This document shows positions 524 through 27,409 of a DNA stretch of 33,577 nucleotides, one piece after another (positions within the stretch are counted from its first letter, which is position 1; the number at the start of each line of letters is the position of its first letter). This DNA is from a cyanobiont of Ornithocercus magnificus (GTDB lineage Bacteria > Cyanobacteriota > Cyanobacteriia > PCC-6307 > Cyanobiaceae): assembly GCA_007996965.1 (NCBI GenBank), contig BIMP01000004.1, positions 1 through 33,577 on the forward strand, written 5' to 3'. A program made the position numbers and the translations under genes. The notes beneath the pieces are model-generated. The model did no database searches. It was given only the letters and a program-made list of their open reading frames with translations, and had not been told where the DNA came from.

Positions 524-1634
524 GGCAGACCTAATTTCTCATCCTGTTGGCATCAAGGCACGCTATCGCTTCCACCTCTTATCCGCAGCTGCACAGCGCA
601 TTGTGTTGATGCAGCTGTTCGGCTGTACTCGCAGGGTGTGGAACGATGCTCTAGCTCACTGCCAAGAGCTGCGAGGAGTGGGCGAGAAGACACCTTCTAA
701 TTCTGAATTATGACCTCCGTGGATGTCGGCAGCCAAAGTGGAGTCCCCTGGCTGTCAGCAGTACCTTCAACGCCTTTGTGAAAATCGGCTTTGGATCTGG
801 CGGTGGCCTACAAAAAACTCCTGGACCAGCTGCACCGGCAAGCGCAAGGGACCGAAGGTGCGAGCACCTCGCTTCAAGTTGAAGCGAGACAACCAGCAGG
901 CAGCTCTGTTCACGAAGGTGGCTTCTGCTGCCACGAGCGCACCCTGCAGTTTCAGAAGATTGGCAAAGATGCCCATCGAGTGGAGCCGCTACCTACTGGC
1001 GGAGCCCAACTCCTGCACGGTGATCTGTGATTCTTTGGGGCGCTACTTTGCCTCTTTCGTGGTGGAATTGAAAGGCACCACCAGCTGCACCATTTGTCCT
1101 CAGGAAAGGTGAGCTATTGGCACTGACCTGGGCTTGGCATGCCCTGCCACTATGTCGGATGGTGAAAAGGTGCCCTTCTTAAAGTGCTTTGATGCGGCGC
1201 GGAAGCATTTGCGCCAATCGTAGAGATGCCTATCCCGGCAGTGTAGAGATTACACCCGCATAAACAAGGTGACGGGACGACAGCAGCGGGGAAGTCACCG
1301 CTATCCAGGCCATGCGGCGTGAAGTGTCCAGGCTTCACACCAGGGTTGCAGACCAGAGAACCAACGGGATACGTCAACTGATAACTCGTCTGGTGCGTGA
1401 CCACGACTTCATTGCCATCAAGGATCTCAAAGTGTCCGTTATGCTCAGAGCACCCAAGCCAGTGTTTGATGAAGCAATGGATCTATGGCTGACCAATGCC
1501 ATGCCTCCAAGCGCAGTCTGACTAGAGCAATTTTTGATGCTAGCTGGGCCACTTTCCGCACTATGTTAGAGCAGAAGGCTGATCGCGCCGCTATCAAGCA
1601 GGTGGTGGCAGTTAGCCCCTTCTACACCCTTTAG
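510..1634 (+). pseudogene. tnpB: Decayed IS605-type TnpB (RuvC-like RNA-guided nuclease) relic
   Basis: TnpB is the accessory RNA-guided nuclease of IS200/IS605 elements. The N-terminal piece (510-713) reads KARYRFHLLSAAAQRIV and FGCTRRVWNDALAHCQEL, typical of TnpB/OrfB starts. Later pieces in other frames give GKRKGPKVRAPRFKLKRDNQ, then RYFASFVVELKG. GTDLGLACPA follows at about 1,117 and carries the first RuvC aspartate. RVADQRTN..ITRLVRDHDFIAIKDL is seen at 1,345-1,430, and DASWATFRTMLEQKAD near 1,540. Several frameshifts separate the pieces. The usual second catalytic glutamate (IAIED in relatives) is a lysine here (IAIKD). The C-terminal zinc ribbon is missing because a stop falls at 1632-1634. 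It is a dead gene. Confidence 0.8.
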
Positions 1635-6661: not shown

Positions 6662-7414
6662 TTAGAATTGCTGTCTCAGCTGTTTTCTTGCTTCGCTACT
6701 TAGCTTATCATCACTCAATGTCTCACTAAGTTTAAGGAGCTGCTGTCTGCTACTCGGGCTATTAATATACCCAAGAGCGAGCAGCACTGTCCTTGCAACT
6801 AAGCCACAGCTCTGGTAGCATAAATTGGTGAGACGTTTGCAGATAGCAGGACTACCACGACGTTGCAGGATGCGCACTGCGGCAATCACCACTGGGTCCC
6901 GCCAGTCGACTAGAGCGACTTCACATAGTTGCAGTAGAGTTTCATCATCTAGTTGATGCGCTTTGAACATCAATAGATTCAGACCAGCTATTCGGTGTGC
7001 TTGACTAGGTGATTTGAGGCTTTGCTTAATCACACTACAAGGAACCTCTGCTCCCCAGCATTCAAGCGCTTTTAGGAGAGCTAAGTTAGCTTCCAAATCC
7101 GCCTTTTGAAGTTGTTTAAGTAACCATTTGCGCGCTGCTGACTGGTGGCAGAGTCCAGCAGCATAAATAAGCTCGGGCTGTGCTCCATAGTCATTAACCA
7201 ACTGCTTAATGATGGGCCAGCCCTTATCCGCTAAGATACCAAGCCTTTCACAGAGGACTTTACGGATCTCGTAAGGAAGGCTAACTGAGTAGGTTTCTCC
7301 GAGCCAAGATGGCTCTAGGCGGACTTTACGAGATTGAGATAAAGCTTCCCAAAGTTCTGCTTCGCTCTTAGTCATCAAAACACTAAGTCCAATAGCTAAG
7401 AGTGTATCTTCCAC
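6662..7414 (-). CDS. HEAT-repeat protein of the nitrate cluster
   Basis: A 250-residue all-helical protein made of repeated helix pairs of the HEAT/PBS-lyase-like type. Examples are ANLALLKALECWGAEVPC, then SQAHRIAGLNLLMFKAHQLD, DPVVIAAVRILQRRGSPAIC and GLVARTVLLALGYINSPSS. It lies 79 bases downstream of the NarB-NirA frame on the same strand, so co-transcription is likely. HEAT-repeat proteins next to nirA, often called NirB, are known from cyanobacterial nitrate clusters and affect nitrite reductase activity or nirA expression. I infer an assembly or regulatory partner for the reductase. A phycobilin lyase is less likely given the context. The start used is a GTG at 7,414; an ATG 13 codons later (MTKSEAELWEAL) is an alternative. 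Confidence 0.7.
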   Translation of the reverse strand: MEDTLLAIGLSVLMTKSEAELWEALSQSRKVRLEPSWLGETYSVSLPYEIRKVLCERLGILADKGWPIIKQLVNDYGAQPELIYAAGLCHQSAARKWLLKQLQKADLEANLALLKALECWGAEVPCSVIKQSLKSPSQAHRIAGLNLLMFKAHQLDDETLLQLCEVALVDWRDPVVIAAVRILQRRGSPAICKRLTNLCYQSCGLVARTVLLALGYINSPSSRQQLLKLSETLSDDKLSSEARKQLRQQF

Positions 7415-7493
7415 TTTAGTAGGAGTCGCAGATACTTTACCAAAATCTTAAGTCGGTAATAGCAAGGTGATAGGCCTAAATAAAGGATTGGGC

Positions 7494-10400
7494 TTAACTA
7501 TCAGGTACCTCATGTTGAGTTGGGACAGCACCAAACTTATCTATTAAGAGCTTACGAAGCGAGTCACCGATTTCTTCGGCCGGTACGGATTTTTTATAAA
7601 CCTCACCAATTTTCGGATTGGCTCCCTGGGACCCGCCGACAGTTATTGTGTATCCGTCATCTATCACACCTTTGCTATTTCTGACCTTAGTGCCAGTCAA
7701 ACCTATCGCTCCCATATAAGCCTGACCACAGCTATTTGGACAGCCAGTCCAGTGAATCTTAACCTCTTCTGGAAGATCTAGTTCCGAATCTAGCTTTTTT
7801 GAGGTTTTAACTGCTTGTTCTTTAGTGTTGGCAAGAGCGAAGCTACAATAGGTATTACCAGTACATGAGACAGTACCAGCAGTAATAGACCTAGGTTCTA
7901 GAGGAAAACGCTGCAGAAGAAAATCATTTCTAAAAGAGCTCAGCTTATCTTCTGAAAGACCAACAATGATTACATTTTGGTCTTCTGTAAGGCGTACTTC
8001 GCCACTGCCATAATCTAAACTGGCAGTAGCCAGATCTTGTAGATCTTCAGCTGTAAGGCGGCCTACTGGGACATGAAGTCCGGCAAAATAGAATCCTTTT
8101 TGTTTCTGTGGATGAATTCCTAGATGTGATCTAGGGGTGTCGTTAAAGACAGAACCTGGGTCTGGTGTTAGTTGTTGCCCAAGGAACTCTTCAACCATAG
8201 AGCGAAATGCATCTAGTCCCACCTCCTCAAGATAGAAGCGGAATCGTCCCCTATTTCGCTTATTGCGTTCGCCGTTGTCACGCCAGATTTTAATTACAGC
8301 ATCAGTAATCATACAAATTTGATCTGTCTTTACCCAAACATTTAATGGCACTGCATATGCATTCATCTGAGAGGAGAGTATGCCAGCTATCCATACACCA
8401 AATCCCATCACACCATCATTTTCTACGGGATGGAAGATAATATCATTGTGCAGTAAGAAATTATCTTTCGCCCCTGCTACAGCAGCATTCCACTTGCGTG
8501 GTAGATTAGAGAACTCTGGGTTACCTTCGCAGTTATTAGTCAGAAAATTTTGTAACTCTGTAGTATAGGGACGTGTGTCGACTATTTCTAGCGGGTCAAT
8601 ACCAGCTAGAGGATTGCCAGTTATGTTGCGAGGGTTGTCAAATCCTGACTGTATGCTACTGAGGCCAGCTTTCTTGAGGCGTCTCAAAATTTCTGGCAGG
8701 TCACCAATAAGTATGCCGCGTAGCTGTAGATTTTGCCGGGTTGTGATGTCACAGCTGCTAGCATCACCATAACGCCCGACGATAGATGCAACTATACGCA
8801 GCTGGTACTCGGAAAGAATACCATTAGGGATTCGTAAGCGAAGCATAAATTTTCCCGGTGTTTTAGGCCTCCAGAATATTCCGTACCACTTGAGTCGAAG
8901 TTCCAGGTCAGTCTTATTCATTTGTTCCCAGCCTAACTGGGCAAATCTTTCAATCTCGCTGCCCACTAGAAGGCCATCCTTATTGGCTTTGTCTTGCTCA
9001 ATCTTGTTTAGCTTTCTACCATCTAGGTATGATCTGGTAGATGTGAGAGAGCTTGAATTAATAGCCATGGTCTGTTCTTGTTTTACTGTAGGTACTGGTA
9101 GCTTGGGTGTAGCTGGTGCTGCCATTACAGCGCATGCTTTCAGCTCAGGCTGTTTGGATATCGGGCAGACTTGACCATAAATGAGCATATTCACTTCACA
9201 AGCATGCTCCTGAGTAAAGCCCCAGTGCATTGGTAGAAATACTGTGCCTATAAGAATTCGATCTGTCACTTTTACACGGACAGTAAGGTAGCTACGACGT
9301 GAACTAACTACAGCTACTTCCTTGTCGCATAACTTAAATTTTTGGGCGTCAGTGGGATTTATCTCTAGTAATGGCTCAGGATGCATGAGTTGTAGACGCC
9401 TCACCTTTCCGGTGCGCGTCATCGTGTGCCACTGGCCTAAATACCGGCCCACGGTAAGCACCAGAGGATAATCATTGCAAGGTGCTTCTGCGATACCAAG
9501 TGGTTGGTCAGCAGTAAAGTGGGCTAAGCCGCTTTCGGTGGGAAAGTGGTGATCGCTGTAGAGCCTTTTCGCATCTTTTGTCGGCTGACTGCCACTTGGA
9601 AAAGGCCATTGCTGAGGGCCATTTTGCTTAAGTAATTCGTGGCTTAAGCCCGACACATCACAGATACGGCCTTTGGTAATAGATGTAAACTCGGTATATA
9701 CCTCAGCAGCAGAGTCAAATGCAAACTGCTCCTCAAATCCCAGGCGTCGCCCTACCTCAGCGAATATCTGCCAATCCGGCATGCTTTGACCATGGCGGGG
9801 CCGGTAAGCAGGACAGTAGGTGACTCGCCGCTCAGAATTAGTCATTACCCCAGCTTTTTCACTCCACTGACAAGCAGGAAGTAGAAGGTGGGAATAAAAG
9901 GCAGTCTCTGAGCCAGCGTAAACCTCACTAACCACCACAAATGGGCAGCGCTGTGCGGCTGCTTTCACCTGCTTTAAGTTGGGCATACTTACGAGTGGAT
10001 TAGTAGCTGCTACCCACCAGAGATCAATTTCGCCCTTGGCCATTGCTTCTATCTGCTGATAGGCGACTAGGCCTGGTTCAGCTGCTATGCTTCCAGCAGG
10101 GAAATTCCAAGCCTCCTCTAAATCAGCACGGTGCTGACTATTGGTAGTAAGACGATACCCAGGCAGTAATTGGGCTAATCCACCAGCCTCTCTGCCACCC
10201 ATGGCATTCGGCTGACCTGTGAGAGAGAATGGCCCAGCTCCTTCCTTGCCGATCTGGCCGGTAAGTAGATGCAAGTTTATCACTCCACATACAATAGCTG
10301 TGCCCTCTCGTCTTTGGTTTATACCCATTGACCAGAGGCTGAGGATATTTTGGTCGCAACACCACAATTGGGCTACATCTTGTAGCTGTTTCTCAGAGAT

Positions 10401-11258
10401 GCGGCAGAATTTAGCTACTAAACCAGGTGTCCATCTATTTACTTCTTTGGAGAAAGCATCGTAGTTCTCAGTAGCCTTGTTGATAAAGGCCTGGTCTTGC
10501 CTATTGCTGCGCAGGACAAGGTGAGCAATACCATGCAGTAAAGCTAGATCGGTGCCTGGAGCAATCTGCAGATGGATGTCTGCATTCTTAGCAGTATCAG
10601 TCTGACGTGGATCTATCACAATGAGGACAAGACTACTAGGATCTTTCTTCTTGCGTCTAATTAATCGTTGAAATAGCACCGGATGACACTCAGCAGTATT
10701 AGTACCAATCAGAAAAGCTACTGTGCAATGGTCAAGATCTTCATAACAGCAAGGAGGACCGTCAGAACCAAGACTACGTATGTAGCCAGCCACAGCTGAG
10801 CTCATACATAGCCGTGAATTAGCATCAAAGTTATTGGTGCCAAGGGCACCCTTAAATAACTTCTGGGCTAAGTAATAGTCTTCAGTATGAAACTGCCCTG
10901 AGCCATACATAGCGATAGCGCTTGGCCCTTTAGTCTGCAGACTGCTACAGATCTGATCTGTGATTCGGTTTAGAGCTGTATCCCAGCTAACTGGTTGGAA
11001 ATCTACATCTAGGCTTGGTCTGTACATTGGCTGGTATAGTCGACCACAACTTAATGCTTCACCTACACTGGCACCTTTGATGCAAAGTTGCCCGAGACTA
11101 GAAGGATGACTTCGATCTCCACGAGCCGTCCACATCGGATTACCATCAGCATCAAGACGGGTGGGTTTTCCTAACTGTGTTGGTGGTAACATTTCAAGAC
11201 CACACCCCACCCCACAGTATGGGCACTGACTACGCACACTTCCAGAGACTATTGTCAT
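7494..11258 (-). CDS. narB-nirA: NarB-NirA fusion: nitrate reductase joined to nitrite reductase
   Basis: One 1,254-residue frame. Residues 1 to about 711 are a molybdenum bis-MGD nitrate reductase of cyanobacterial NarB type. Cys12, Cys15, Cys19 and Cys59 (CPYCGVGC...CIKG) are the 4Fe-4S ligands, and Cys151 in SRLCMSSAVAGY is the expected Mo ligand. Residues 712-730 form a Pro/Ala-rich linker (MAAPATPKLPVPTVKQEQT). Residues 731-1254 are a complete ferredoxin-nitrite reductase beginning MAINSSSLTSTRSYLDGRKL. It has siroheme/4Fe-4S cysteines at 1132, 1138, 1173 and 1177 (CTGNTYC and CPNSC). Both halves are near the length of the free enzymes, and no stop lies between them. The product would carry out nitrate to nitrite to ammonium in the cytoplasm using ferredoxin. 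The internal Met731 has no good Shine-Dalgarno sequence, so separate NirA synthesis looks unlikely but is not excluded. Confidence 0.93.
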   Translation of the reverse strand: MTIVSGSVRSQCPYCGVGCGLEMLPPTQLGKPTRLDADGNPMWTARGDRSHPSSLGQLCIKGASVGEALSCGRLYQPMYRPSLDVDFQPVSWDTALNRITDQICSSLQTKGPSAIAMYGSGQFHTEDYYLAQKLFKGALGTNNFDANSRLCMSSAVAGYIRSLGSDGPPCCYEDLDHCTVAFLIGTNTAECHPVLFQRLIRRKKKDPSSLVLIVIDPRQTDTAKNADIHLQIAPGTDLALLHGIAHLVLRSNRQDQAFINKATENYDAFSKEVNRWTPGLVAKFCRISEKQLQDVAQLWCCDQNILSLWSMGINQRREGTAIVCGVINLHLLTGQIGKEGAGPFSLTGQPNAMGGREAGGLAQLLPGYRLTTNSQHRADLEEAWNFPAGSIAAEPGLVAYQQIEAMAKGEIDLWWVAATNPLVSMPNLKQVKAAAQRCPFVVVSEVYAGSETAFYSHLLLPACQWSEKAGVMTNSERRVTYCPAYRPRHGQSMPDWQIFAEVGRRLGFEEQFAFDSAAEVYTEFTSITKGRICDVSGLSHELLKQNGPQQWPFPSGSQPTKDAKRLYSDHHFPTESGLAHFTADQPLGIAEAPCNDYPLVLTVGRYLGQWHTMTRTGKVRRLQLMHPEPLLEINPTDAQKFKLCDKEVAVVSSRRSYLTVRVKVTDRILIGTVFLPMHWGFTQEHACEVNMLIYGQVCPISKQPELKACAVMAAPATPKLPVPTVKQEQTMAINSSSLTSTRSYLDGRKLNKIEQDKANKDGLLVGSEIERFAQLGWEQMNKTDLELRLKWYGIFWRPKTPGKFMLRLRIPNGILSEYQLRIVASIVGRYGDASSCDITTRQNLQLRGILIGDLPEILRRLKKAGLSSIQSGFDNPRNITGNPLAGIDPLEIVDTRPYTTELQNFLTNNCEGNPEFSNLPRKWNAAVAGAKDNFLLHNDIIFHPVENDGVMGFGVWIAGILSSQMNAYAVPLNVWVKTDQICMITDAVIKIWRDNGERNKRNRGRFRFYLEEVGLDAFRSMVEEFLGQQLTPDPGSVFNDTPRSHLGIHPQKQKGFYFAGLHVPVGRLTAEDLQDLATASLDYGSGEVRLTEDQNVIIVGLSEDKLSSFRNDFLLQRFPLEPRSITAGTVSCTGNTYCSFALANTKEQAVKTSKKLDSELDLPEEVKIHWTGCPNSCGQAYMGAIGLTGTKVRNSKGVIDDGYTITVGGSQGANPKIGEVYKKSVPAEEIGDSLRKLLIDKFGAVPTQHEVPDS

Positions 11259-11347: not shown

Positions 11348-12910
11348 TCAGTGATTCACCCCGGCCAATACTGTAACCTCCCCATCATATAACTCGTCAA
11401 AGGAGTTCTTCGGTTCCTTAAGGAAGAAAAGACACAGAAAAGCAACAATCAAGCCAGTTATACCTAGCACCTGAAAGAAAATACTACTGGAGACTTGAAT
11501 CACTTCTGGTGATGGGTTGGTTCCACCACCTATCCAGCTGGGCAATAGGCTAAGGATAGTTAGATAGGTAACAGCCCCAACGTTACCATAAGCACCCACC
11601 AACCCAGCAATTTGGCCAGTAACATTACGCTTGATAAGTGGAACCAGTGCAAAAGTAGCACCTTCACCTGCTTGTACGAAGAAGGAGGTAAACATGGTAA
11701 AAGATAGAGCTACAAGAATACCAGCTAGACCTGTAAAGGTACCTGACTTGATTAAACTCATCATCAGATAGCCAAAGCCAAGGCCCATGGATAGCAGAAC
11801 CATGACGTTCTTGCGGCTGCCGAGCTTGTCAGAAAATATACCACCAGCTGGGCGAGCAACCAAATTTACGAAAGCAAAACAAGAGGCTAGTGCTCCTGCC
11901 ATTGCTTTAGACAGGTCAAAGGTAACCTCGAAAAAAGCAGGCAGCATTGAAATAACAGCTAATTCAGATCCAAAGTTGATTATATATGTAAGTTCGAGGA
12001 TAGCCACCTGGGAAAACTCATAACGATCCTCCTTTGGATAAATCTTTGTGCCGATGATCAGATCGCGGTTGGTACGAATCACTCCTATTGTCTGTACAAC
12101 AAAATAGATTAATGCAGCTAGTAAAGCTAGTGGATAGGCTCTGGCATTAAGGAAACCGACTTTTTGTAAACGCCAGCAAAGTAAACAAAGCACAGCAGTA
12201 AAGGGTATATTCATAACTATTAACCCCCAAAAATCTCGCCTAGATGTAACTTCTAGGCCTGCTGTTTTAGCAGGACGCTGGTAGACCTTACCTGGAGAGC
12301 TATCAGAGGATTGTAAGAAATAGATAATACTGTAAACAGCGGAGATAATACCAGTGAGAGCAACGGCACCGCGCCAGTTTAGGACAACACTGTTAGGTAG
12401 TTCGAGGCCACCAAAGAAGCTAAGCCAACTAGCAAGGCCAACTAGTGTAAGAGCAGAAAAAGCGGAGCCAAAATTACCCCAGCCTCCGTAAATACCTTCT
12501 GCTAATCCAATCTCTTTAGGTGGAAACCACTCGGCTACCATGCGAATGCCAATTACGAAGCCAGCACCAACTATAGATAACAGTAGGCGGGCTGCTACTA
12601 GCTGGTCAAAGTTCTGGGCCGCTGCAAATAGTAGACAAGGAACACATGAAAAAAGTAATAGACTAGAATAAGTTAGTCGTGGACCGAATTTGTCCAACAA
12701 CATACCAATTACTACGCGGGCTGGAACTGTTAACGCCACGTTACAAATAGCTAGAGTCTGAATCTGACTAGTGGTTAAGCCTAGATCAGCCTGAATAGTA
12801 GTAGCCAGAGGGGCTAAGTTGAACCAGACAACAAATGTTAGAAAAAAGGCAAACCAGGTTAGATGAAGTGTCTTATATCTTCCCTGGAGTGACCAAAGTT
12901 TGCTAAGCAT
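11348..12910 (-). CDS. nrtP: Nitrate/nitrite permease NrtP (MFS, NNP family)
   Basis: A 520-residue major facilitator protein with about twelve hydrophobic segments. It carries the NNP-family signatures for nitrate/nitrite porters: GGWGNFGSAFSAL at 142-154, and a second one at 414-446 that includes AGEGATFALVPL and GAYGNVGA. The MFS loop motif GMLLDKFGPR is at 69-78. It would import nitrate (and nitrite) across the inner membrane by proton-coupled transport. Marine Synechococcus use this single-gene permease in place of the NrtABCD ABC transporter. It lies upstream of narB-nirA on the same strand, with an 89-base gap, so substrate uptake and reduction are probably co-expressed. No truncation is evident. 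Confidence 0.92.
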   Translation of the reverse strand: MLSKLWSLQGRYKTLHLTWFAFFLTFVVWFNLAPLATTIQADLGLTTSQIQTLAICNVALTVPARVVIGMLLDKFGPRLTYSSLLLFSCVPCLLFAAAQNFDQLVAARLLLSIVGAGFVIGIRMVAEWFPPKEIGLAEGIYGGWGNFGSAFSALTLVGLASWLSFFGGLELPNSVVLNWRGAVALTGIISAVYSIIYFLQSSDSSPGKVYQRPAKTAGLEVTSRRDFWGLIVMNIPFTAVLCLLCWRLQKVGFLNARAYPLALLAALIYFVVQTIGVIRTNRDLIIGTKIYPKEDRYEFSQVAILELTYIINFGSELAVISMLPAFFEVTFDLSKAMAGALASCFAFVNLVARPAGGIFSDKLGSRKNVMVLLSMGLGFGYLMMSLIKSGTFTGLAGILVALSFTMFTSFFVQAGEGATFALVPLIKRNVTGQIAGLVGAYGNVGAVTYLTILSLLPSWIGGGTNPSPEVIQVSSSIFFQVLGITGLIVAFLCLFFLKEPKNSFDELYDGEVTVLAGVNH

Positions 12911-23910: not shown

Positions 23911-24723
23911 ATGAATAAGATGAATAAAAAGACTGTAGAGGGAGCACCGATTGACGAAGCTGAGGCACTGCGGCGGTTAGAGCAAAGAGATGACCCAGCA
24001 AGTCGTTACTACGCTGCTTGGTGGCTTGGCCACGAACGTAGCAAGCACGTACGTACATTACCCCTGCTACGCGCTGCACTCCAAGAACTATTGAACTCTG
24101 GAAACAATCCATCAGAAGAGTGCCGTGCTTTGGCGCTAAATGTACTGCGAGCATTAGTGCACCTCAATGGTGCTGAGGCACGCACAGAGCTGCTGGCCTG
24201 CCTTGAGTACCAAGATTCTGACATCCGTGAGGAGGCCGCTCGTACTATTGGTGCCGCAGGGCTTCGAGAGGCGATTCCAGCTATCTGCCAACAGCTTCGT
24301 TACACTGCTAAGACTGGCGAACACCTCCTAGAGGCCTTGCTCGAGGCTCTTGGTGACTTAGGTCAGGCAGACTCTGAGGTAATCCAGGCTCTTGAGTCTT
24401 TCGCTAGTGATGAACGCCCACTAATTCGCTCAGCAAGCTGCCGTGCCTTATTACAGTTAACTGGTCAATCTCAATGGGCCGAGGCCTTCGCGCAACTGCT
24501 ACAGCATTCTTCCAGCCAGGTATGTAGAGGGGTGTTAATCGATCTGGGTGTCAGTGGCTGGGTGCCTTGCCTAAGGCTGATCCAGGACAGCCCAGTAGAG
24601 AACAGCATCAAACTGATTGCCCTACGAGGATTGGCTGAGCATCCGCGTGGCTTGCAGGCTGCAGGACTAGAGCATAACGAAGCAGTTCAAGCAGTGATCA
24701 ATGCGATGGATGAGTTGCTGTGA
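23911..24723 (+). CDS. cpcE: CpcE-type phycobilin lyase alpha subunit (HEAT repeats)
   Basis: A 270-residue helical-repeat protein of the E/F phycobilin lyase clan. Repeats include EAEALRRLEQRDDPASRYYA with AWWLG, ARTELLACLEYQDSDIREEA, ARTIGAAGLREAIPAICQQL and LEALLEALGDLGQADSEVIQ. The length matches CpcE, and it is followed by a CpcF-sized partner with a 4-base overlap. In this family the E and F proteins form a heterodimer that attaches a bilin to the alpha-subunit Cys84 of phycocyanin. RpcE/RpcF-type attachment to R-phycocyanin is equally possible here. This implies the organism makes phycobilisomes, although no phycobiliprotein gene is in the window. The start may be 23,911 or the Met three codons later. 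Confidence 0.8.
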   Translation: MNKMNKKTVEGAPIDEAEALRRLEQRDDPASRYYAAWWLGHERSKHVRTLPLLRAALQELLNSGNNPSEECRALALNVLRALVHLNGAEARTELLACLEYQDSDIREEAARTIGAAGLREAIPAICQQLRYTAKTGEHLLEALLEALGDLGQADSEVIQALESFASDERPLIRSASCRALLQLTGQSQWAEAFAQLLQHSSSQVCRGVLIDLGVSGWVPCLRLIQDSPVENSIKLIALRGLAEHPRGLQAAGLEHNEAVQAVINAMDELL

Positions 24724-25373
24724 CTGACGAGCGAGCACTGCAGAACGCTTTGGCTGCTATCGATGCAGCAAGCACTAGTACTGAGCTGAGGATAGCTACT
24801 GGCGAACTGGTGCGTTGTCGGCATCTTGATGCAGTCCCGAAGCTAATGGAGGTGATTGGCTACAATAATCCTTCCTTGGCCAATCTAGCCGTTAGCGGTT
24901 TAATTTCCCTTGGAGCAGCTGCTGCGCCACTCATCCTTAAACAGCTCGACCCAAGCAACTACAGTGCCCGCGCTTGGGCCGTCCGCGCTCTAGCTGAAAT
25001 AGGTGATATTTGCGGGCTAACAACTCTGGAACAGGCAATTGCCAACGATATAGGGCCAAGCGTGCGCCGTGCTGCCGCTAAAGGACTTGGCATAATCCGT
25101 CTCTCTAGTAATCCAGGAAAGGCAGAGAAGGAGAGAAGTCGCTGCCTCTATGCTCTGTGCCAAGCGTGCAACGATGGTGAGTGGGTAGTGCGTTATGCTG
25201 CAGCCTTTGGGCTAGAACATCGCCTGAAGAATGTAAGCTGGCGGGAACAACTGTGCTCAAGTGGCGAAAGGGCTCTACAACAACTGTCAGGCGAATCCGA
25301 AGCTGTCAGGATAGTGCGTCTCCGAGCCCATCTCGCCCTTCAGTGCCTTCGCCTCCAAGCCACAACCAATTAG
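24720..25373 (+). CDS. cpcF: CpcF-type phycobilin lyase beta subunit (HEAT repeats)
   Basis: A 217-residue HEAT-repeat protein of CpcF size. Repeat helices include RCRHLDAVPKLMEVIGYNN, then LANLAVSGLISLGAAAAPLI, SARAWAVRALAEIGDICGLT and SVRRAAAKGLGIIRLSS. The region EWVVRYAAAFGLEHRL is a family-typical repeat. The GTG start at 24,720 overlaps the cpcE stop as GTGA, so translation is probably coupled and the two subunits are made in equal amounts. Its likely role is bilin attachment to a phycocyanin alpha subunit together with CpcE. Two hairpins follow downstream at 25,544 and 25,598. Which phycobiliprotein and which bilin it serves cannot be told from this window. Confidence 0.8.
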   Translation: MTDERALQNALAAIDAASTSTELRIATGELVRCRHLDAVPKLMEVIGYNNPSLANLAVSGLISLGAAAAPLILKQLDPSNYSARAWAVRALAEIGDICGLTTLEQAIANDIGPSVRRAAAKGLGIIRLSSNPGKAEKERSRCLYALCQACNDGEWVVRYAAAFGLEHRLKNVSWREQLCSSGERALQQLSGESEAVRIVRLRAHLALQCLRLQATTN

Positions 25374-26404: not shown

Positions 26405-27409
26405 GTGTCAACCGACTGGCATCTCCACATGACCACTACTCTCACCAAGCCTCTAGCTGGCATCTGCTTCAAGATCATCAAGGGTTGGGTAAACGTCGCC
26501 CGCAATGGCCGGGGCGGTCAAATCGACGACCAAGGCACACCTTGGAGCCGTCTACCAGCCTGGCAGATCCACGAGCAGGTTGCTCGCGAGTTTTACACCC
26601 AGACGAGTATGCGCTCGGTCTACAGAGCTCTCAAGTGGCTCGAGGAGGCCAAGCTAATCCGCCGCGAGAAGCTTTGGCGCCATGAAAGGTGGCCGGGGCA
26701 GCACTACTGGTACACCCTAGTCGAGGAGCCAACAGACAAGGAACCAGAACCAACAGAAGTCCACAGGTCCTCCAAAACCAAGGCTAGGACTAAATTGACA
26801 CCTTTGGCAAATAGAGGCAGACAACTTGTCAAAACAGAGTTGCCAATGTTGGCAAATCAGTATCTATATACTCTTACTAACAACTCAGATCTAACTAATC
26901 CCCCTCTAAATCTCCCCCACCAGGCACTCGCAGAGCTGGAAGAGCTGGAAGAGCTGGAAGAGCTGGAAGAGCTGGAAGAGCTGGAAGAGCTGGAAGAGCT
27001 GGAAGAGCTGGAACCGGCAGTGGAATTGGAGGAAGCCAAGCTGCAGTCGGTGCTCGGATCCATTCCGGTTCCCAAGACTCGCGCTCAGCTGAAAGGAGAG
27101 CGAGAAAAGCAAGAGAGGCAAAGGGAATTAGAAAGGCAAAGAGCAAGACAGCAGGCGTTGGCTAAAGACGCCAGAAAAGCCGCTGTAGCTACTCAGAACA
27201 TCAACAACCAGAATTGGATTGCTAAGGAGCTGGGCAGCATCCGCAGAAGGATGTGGCAGAACCCAGCTAAGGGTTTTAAACCCACGACTCCCACAGCTTC
27301 CAAAAAACGCTTCCTCGAGCGTCCTGAAAGGGCTGTAGGCAGGGATAAGCAGGGCAGAACCATCAAAGAGGTCTGGGTATCAGGCTACAGATATCTGGTG
27401 GTGGATTAA
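26405..27409 (+). CDS. Winged-helix protein with acidic ELE repeat tract
   Basis: A 334-residue protein in three parts. Residues about 15-110 form a winged-helix-type DNA-binding region (WQIHEQVAREFYTQTSMRSV, then YRALKWLEEAKLIRREKLW). This resembles the Rep-like or HTH proteins of plasmids and genomic islands. Residues 177-203 are nine perfect ELE triplets, an acidic helix. Residues about 225-260 are a basic, Gln/Arg-rich helix (REKQERQRELERQRARQQ), and the C-terminus is rich in Trp/Lys with VWVSGYRYLVVD. The GTG at 26,405 and the ATG at 26,429 are both possible starts. The function is unknown; a role in mobile-element replication or partition is inferred from the primase relic 4 kb away. 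Confidence 0.6.
   Translation: MSTDWHLHMTTTLTKPLAGICFKIIKGWVNVARNGRGGQIDDQGTPWSRLPAWQIHEQVAREFYTQTSMRSVYRALKWLEEAKLIRREKLWRHERWPGQHYWYTLVEEPTDKEPEPTEVHRSSKTKARTKLTPLANRGRQLVKTELPMLANQYLYTLTNNSDLTNPPLNLPHQALAELEELEELEELEELEELEELEELEELEPAVELEEAKLQSVLGSIPVPKTRAQLKGEREKQERQRELERQRARQQALAKDARKAAVATQNINNQNWIAKELGSIRRRMWQNPAKGFKPTTPTASKKRFLERPERAVGRDKQGRTIKEVWVSGYRYLVVD
26933..27013 (+). repeat. Nine perfect tandem copies of a 9-bp unit
   Basis: GAGCTGGAA is repeated exactly nine times (81 bases) without a single mismatch, encoding ELE x 9 in frame with the gene at 26,405. Because the unit is a multiple of three and free of stops on both strands, copy number can change without breaking the frame. 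Perfect identity suggests recent expansion by slippage. Confidence 0.97.

Follow-up and report, generated by a model that had tools for sequence, protein, structure and literature searches.

A single open reading frame spanning nitrate reductase NarB and ferredoxin–nitrite reductase NirA in a cyanobiont of Ornithocercus magnificus: a probable gene fusion at a rearranged locus

Are the two reductases of nitrate assimilation encoded as one protein in this dinoflagellate cyanobiont, and if so, how did the gene arise and what might its product do? The question is raised by a single open frame in the window, that is, the whole 33,577-nucleotide stretch of DNA analysed here, which corresponds to the complete contig C4 of a genome of 16 contigs (1.88 Mb, given as 95.6% complete). 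The frame runs from an ATG at position 11258 to a stop at 7494 on the minus strand and contains zero internal stops over its 1,254 codons. The uninterrupted frame described in the first-pass annotation is thus confirmed, with no stop between the two modules. The plus strand of the same segment contains 67 stops, and the remaining two minus-strand frames contain 89 and 110. Chance could not plausibly produce a frame of 1,254 codons that carries two full enzymes. The features of the locus are as follows:

7494..11258, minus strand: narB-nirA fusion gene, open frame of 1,254 codons plus stop
9126..11258, minus strand: NarB module, residues 1–711 (Pfam PF04879, PF00384 and PF01568; cysteines; 73% identity to NarB of relatives)
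9069..9125, minus strand: junction, residues 712–730 (MAAPATPKLPVPTVKQEQT), apparently a remodelled NarB C-terminal tail acting as tether
7494..9068, minus strand: NirA module, residues 731–1254 (NF007125; PF01077 and PF03460; 77% identity to NirA of relatives)
11348..12910, minus strand: nrtP, (NapA-type) nitrate/nitrite permease (NCBIfam TIGR00886, above cut-off)
6662..7414, minus strand: HEAT-repeat protein, directly downstream of the fusion (Pfam PF13646; synteny)

Both enzymes are complete, as the first-pass annotation had proposed, and the Pfam and NCBIfam domains bear this out. In the first part of the protein, the molybdopterin Fe4S4, molybdopterin and dinucleotide-binding domains (PF04879, PF00384, PF01568) all lie within residues 8–710 and score above their cut-offs. 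The 4Fe-4S cysteines are found at 12, 15, 19 and 59, and the molybdenum ligand Cys151 sits in the motif SRLCMSS, whose LCMSSA form is likewise present in the NarB relatives compared. NarB identity to the nearest genera is 67–74%. The module matches 276 of the 285 columns that are invariant in all relatives examined, and its root-to-tip distance is unremarkable (rank 41 of 47). The nine otherwise invariant columns that have changed (of about 280) are the highest number for any sequence in the set, partly because this NarB is the lone member of a long-branch lineage; they may also reflect a mild relaxation of selection on the NarB module.

The second part contains the NIR_SIR and NIR_SIR_ferr domains (PF01077, PF03460), and residues 741–1247 match the ferredoxin–nitrite reductase profile NF007125 at 842 bits (cut-off 594), covering profile positions 3–511 of 513. 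All four siroheme/4Fe-4S cysteines are present (1132, 1138, 1173 and 1177); these and the NarB ligands occupy exactly the positions given in the first-pass annotation. The module matches 231 of 240 columns invariant in the relatives compared and has an unremarkable root-to-tip distance (rank 7 of 24). Like NirA of marine picocyanobacteria (NF007125), to which it is up to 77% identical, it is complete and shares the cysteines and the start methionine, here residue 731. In contrast to these proteins, it is not a separate frame, and NarB precedes it in place of its own untranslated leader. The NarB module in turn shares with picocyanobacterial NarB the domains, the cofactor cysteines and an nrtP gene directly upstream, but it lacks a stop of its own and the final ~15 tail residues seen in relatives, and it continues into NirA.

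A whole-genome search identified this frame as the sole narB and the sole nirA of the genome. The other match on the NarB side is a distant molybdopterin oxidoreductase on contig C11, and the other match on the NirA side is a weak siroheme-reductase-like frame on contig C1 (27% identical), which is probably a sulfite reductase.

At the junction the protein reads ELKACAV-MAAPATPKLPVPTVKQEQT-MAINSSS. The first-pass annotation had described a 19-residue linker here; the length (residues 712–730) stands, but in large part the segment is similar to the C-terminus of conventional NarB proteins, which is variable (..IVAPAVSVVKPVEQ..). It thus looks like an inherited NarB tail, not a linker made for the purpose. 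Relatives' NarB typically ends in ELKACAVIVAPAVSVVKPVEQEKGRLEALRRLLTPALR followed by a stop, and in the fusion the last ~15 codons of narB, its stop and all DNA up to the nirA ATG are absent. NarB tails are variable, and several genera are entirely devoid of the ELKACAVIVAPAVSVVKPVEQEKGRLEALRRLLTPALR end, so that its loss in the fusion need not matter. The concern over a simple missed stop is mostly answered by the absence of the ancestral narB end, stop and intergenic DNA. Nevertheless, the codons directly before Met731 (AAA CAA GAA CAG) are each one base from a stop, and a single consensus base error there could hide one. As the start methionine of NirA is retained, free NirA may be produced as well, by internal initiation at Met731. 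We detected no clear ribosome-binding site before this residue; such sites are absent from many picocyanobacterial genes.

We found no second fusion in 400 genomes of the family Cyanobiaceae, of which 287 carry at least one of the two genes at the threshold applied: a single match over both halves was obtained only in the genome of the window, which is the single genome of its genus in the comparison set. With a query spanning the junction, run against largely the same 400 family genomes, the other matches listed were NirA-type frames alone. Two genomes in which matches apparently extended past NarB (G187 and G008) were considered as cases of adjacent narB and nirA and rejected, there being no nirA beside those narB genes. 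No further fusion was present among 386 genomes sampled across the phylum. Beyond the phylum, the sampling consisted of plasmids, where six records reach a query coverage of 80% or more for the fusion; none is a fusion by annotation, the halves lying on separate genes, with one of the six having no listed feature at that place. The matches of haloarchaeal and other plasmids to both halves were thus rejected as fusions, since they correspond to separate neighbouring genes where annotated. The search for other single proteins covering both enzymes, suggested in the first-pass annotation, hence returned none in the family, the phylum sample or the annotated plasmids.

The statement that no NarB-NirA fusion had been described is likewise borne out within the part of the literature that we searched, in which we found no description of a nitrate–nitrite reductase fusion. 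In the fusions described so far, the added partner is a flavoprotein, a globin or NirD (PMC4013037, PMC9837059). NasA-CysJ, which also appeared as a plasmid match, similarly joins an assimilatory reductase to a redox module, but the partner of the nitrate reductase is a sulfite reductase flavoprotein, an electron-supplying domain and not the next enzyme of the pathway. In the raphidophyte NR2-2/2HbN the partner of the nitrate reductase is a globin, and in NirB-NirD the nitrite reductase is fused to a small subunit; none of the three couples nitrate reductase to the enzyme acting after it. The closest functional counterpart combines nasA and ferredoxin–nitrite reductase side by side on haloarchaeal plasmids, annotated as separate genes. 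All checks available indicate that the fusion is real and so far unique. It was proposed as an undescribed system; the architecture is indeed new, but the two enzymes are already known.

How the two genes came together can be traced by comparing the locus with that of relatives. Upstream of the fusion, separated from it by 89 bp, lies nrtP in the same orientation; relatives show this nrtP-narB order as well, and nrtP and the fusion are likely co-transcribed. No perfect GTA-N8-TAC NtcA site was present upstream of nrtP, which decides nothing. In the nearest relatives narB and nirA are on the same strand and usually 6–9 kb apart; two genomes whose NirA is of another type have them ~2.5 kb apart, and in some further relatives the genes are inverted or otherwise ordered. 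Among marine relatives, for example G168 (for which the moa gene names were partly taken from matching copies on contig C11), the order is moaA and mobA (both reverse), nrtP, narB, narM (reverse), others, moaC, moeA, others, moaE, moaD, moaB, cobA, another gene, nirA, a FNT transporter gene and the HEAT-protein gene. The last two follow nirA in relatives. Here, the HEAT-protein gene is retained, and the FNT (FocA/NitM-type) nitrite transporter is missing from positions 6662–7494 of the window, and a search of the rest of the genome did not recover it.

Most of the genes once located between narB and nirA have been relocated rather than lost. Contig C11 carries moaA, mobA, narM, moaC, moeA, moaE, moaD and moaB in the ancestral order; mobA adjoins narM, nrtP-narB having been cut out between them, and we looked for but did not find a remnant of nrtP-narB at this site. 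The fused narB, in contrast to that of relatives, adjoins neither narM nor mobA. On contig C1, cobA, its neighbour and a carbonic-anhydrase-like gene lie together. These several breakpoints are mutually consistent, which argues against a single chimeric join. A single Prochlorococcus cell offers a natural parallel for deletion at the locus: it is reported to retain only nirA and narB after loss of the transporter and molybdopterin genes (PMC6370341).

Elsewhere in the window, a transposase fragment (phrog_506, weak; 723–1112, plus strand) is a possible trace of mobile elements behind the rearrangements. Long intergenic gaps occur at other places too, and the segment 29200–33577 contains only short overlapping frames, with no tRNA or Rfam match; these are possibly decayed genes. 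The product of the gene at 26405–27409 has a winged-helix-like region with weak similarity to phage replication-initiation proteins; the gene includes a repeat of nine perfect copies of the 9-base unit AGAGCTGGA (26932–27013), encoding a Leu-Glu-Glu run. A cpcE/cpcF-type phycocyanin lyase gene pair occupies 23911–25373 on the plus strand, both members scoring under the NCBI equivalog cut-offs (CpcE-like 145.7 against 330, CpcF-like 206 against 220).

For the NarB module, the genome seems to retain the full set of genes for its cofactor. The molybdenum-cofactor synthesis genes (moa, moe, mob) are all on contig C11, together with narM, whose product matures nitrate reductase, and cobA (uroporphyrinogen-III methyltransferase), the step of siroheme supply that our search covered, is on contig C1. 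We therefore rejected the idea that NarB is a relic left after deletion of the molybdenum-cofactor and siroheme genes. Beside the molybdenum-cofactor cluster lies a gene for a 764-residue molybdopterin oxidoreductase of the FdhF/YdeP family (contig C11, 4103–6397, minus strand), a candidate second user of the cofactor in this reduced genome. This enzyme could also account for the retention of the molybdenum-cofactor genes, so that narM is the more specific argument for a working NarB. Since both halves are conserved, the fusion protein is probably functional.

The first-pass annotation had also asked for a structure prediction of the modules and linker. The AlphaFold2 model (residues 45–1244) consists of two confident modules and a disordered tether (pTM 0.55), with a stretch of very low confidence at ~678–740. 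NarB tails were misplaced relative to the fusion in the MAFFT alignment, and the model is thus weak around residues 678–712, where the low confidence may be due to this misplacement. The tether appears flexible in the model, and no fixed interface between the modules is predicted, although this is weak evidence. Accordingly, the earlier proposals that nitrite is channelled to the siroheme site, and that both modules share a docked ferredoxin, find no support in the model, given the pTM of 0.55, the disordered tether and the lack of a fixed interface or domain arrangement.

A channelling enzyme, with a built interface that hands nitrite on to NirA from NarB and one ferredoxin docking for both, would make sense of two consecutive reactions that are both ferredoxin-dependent, as known for these families, in a genome for which we recovered no FNT nitrite transporter. 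Nitrite leakage occurs in some Prochlorococcus that have no FocA, with 20–30% of the nitrate taken up being released in this form; however, Synechococcus WH8102 is devoid of FocA and does not leak nitrite (PMC10470740). As the tether is mostly the variable tail of NarB, and the model is as described above, we consider channelling highly improbable, the least probable of the explanations weighed here. More weight, though still a minor share, goes to the view that genome reduction produced the fusion as a by-product, neutral or in decay and without functional meaning, with NirA made mainly from Met731, or one module inactive. The retained Met731, the disordered tether with no fixed domain arrangement and the rearranged genome, with its lost FNT transporter gene and a transposase fragment in the window, would fit such a history. 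On the other hand, both modules are conserved with every cofactor ligand, narM, the molybdenum-cofactor genes and cobA have been kept, and Met731 is not preceded by a clear ribosome-binding site, weak as this last point is in picocyanobacteria.

The remaining explanations deny the fusion itself. It is unlikely that a deletion left two genes a few bases apart and that one consensus base error then erased the narB stop. The four successive codons one substitution from TAA or TAG, the intact ancestral start of NirA and the NarB tails of several genera, which end shortly past the same point, would all accommodate this scenario, but only a few bases could carry such an error, the frame shows no other defect in either gene, and we saw no such tight narB-nirA pair in relatives. 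Even less probable is an assembly or amplification chimera, in which narB and nirA would not be neighbours in the living genome. The reference may derive from amplified single-cell DNA, where deletion-type chimeras occur, and in many relatives the two genes share a strand, separated by a few kb. Nevertheless, the junction is far inside the contig, the two coding sequences meet in frame at precisely the start of NirA, and the intervening genes have their own new contexts on contigs C11 and C1 (e.g. narM beside mobA), so that several breakpoints would need to be artefacts.

We thus favour, with reasonable confidence, a genuine narB-nirA gene fusion, most likely yielding a single protein of two modules that is expressed together with NrtP; the fusion is known from one genome, as assembled sequence. 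As this picocyanobacterial genome shrank, rearrangement and deletion would have placed nrtP-narB directly against nirA, in frame, and the fusion would be translated as one chain with both modules active. NarB reduces nitrate to nitrite with two electrons from ferredoxin, and NirA reduces nitrite to ammonium with six. The NarB module would accordingly draw two electrons from reduced ferredoxin, a supply that we infer from knowledge of the family, and the NirA module six further ones. As the tether appears flexible, any benefit would come from the 1:1 stoichiometry and the nearness of the active sites rather than from a built tunnel.

That the fusion limits nitrite loss is an attractive hypothesis because the FNT channel is absent and some FocA-less Prochlorococcus leak nitrite. 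Its full form, in which a dinoflagellate symbiont that had lost FNT/FocA evolved a natural single-chain enzyme reducing nitrate to ammonium and retaining nitrite by active-site nearness, is a bold and rather doubtful proposal. If made as one protein, the fusion would be, as far as our searches show, the first natural fusion of consecutive nitrate-assimilation reductases, and would supply the modules of an eight-electron pathway in a 1:1 ratio. Given the leak observed in Prochlorococcus (PMC10470740), whether tethering NirA to NarB lowers the loss of nitrite is directly testable, and efforts to engineer nitrate assimilation could take the fusion as a ready-made design.
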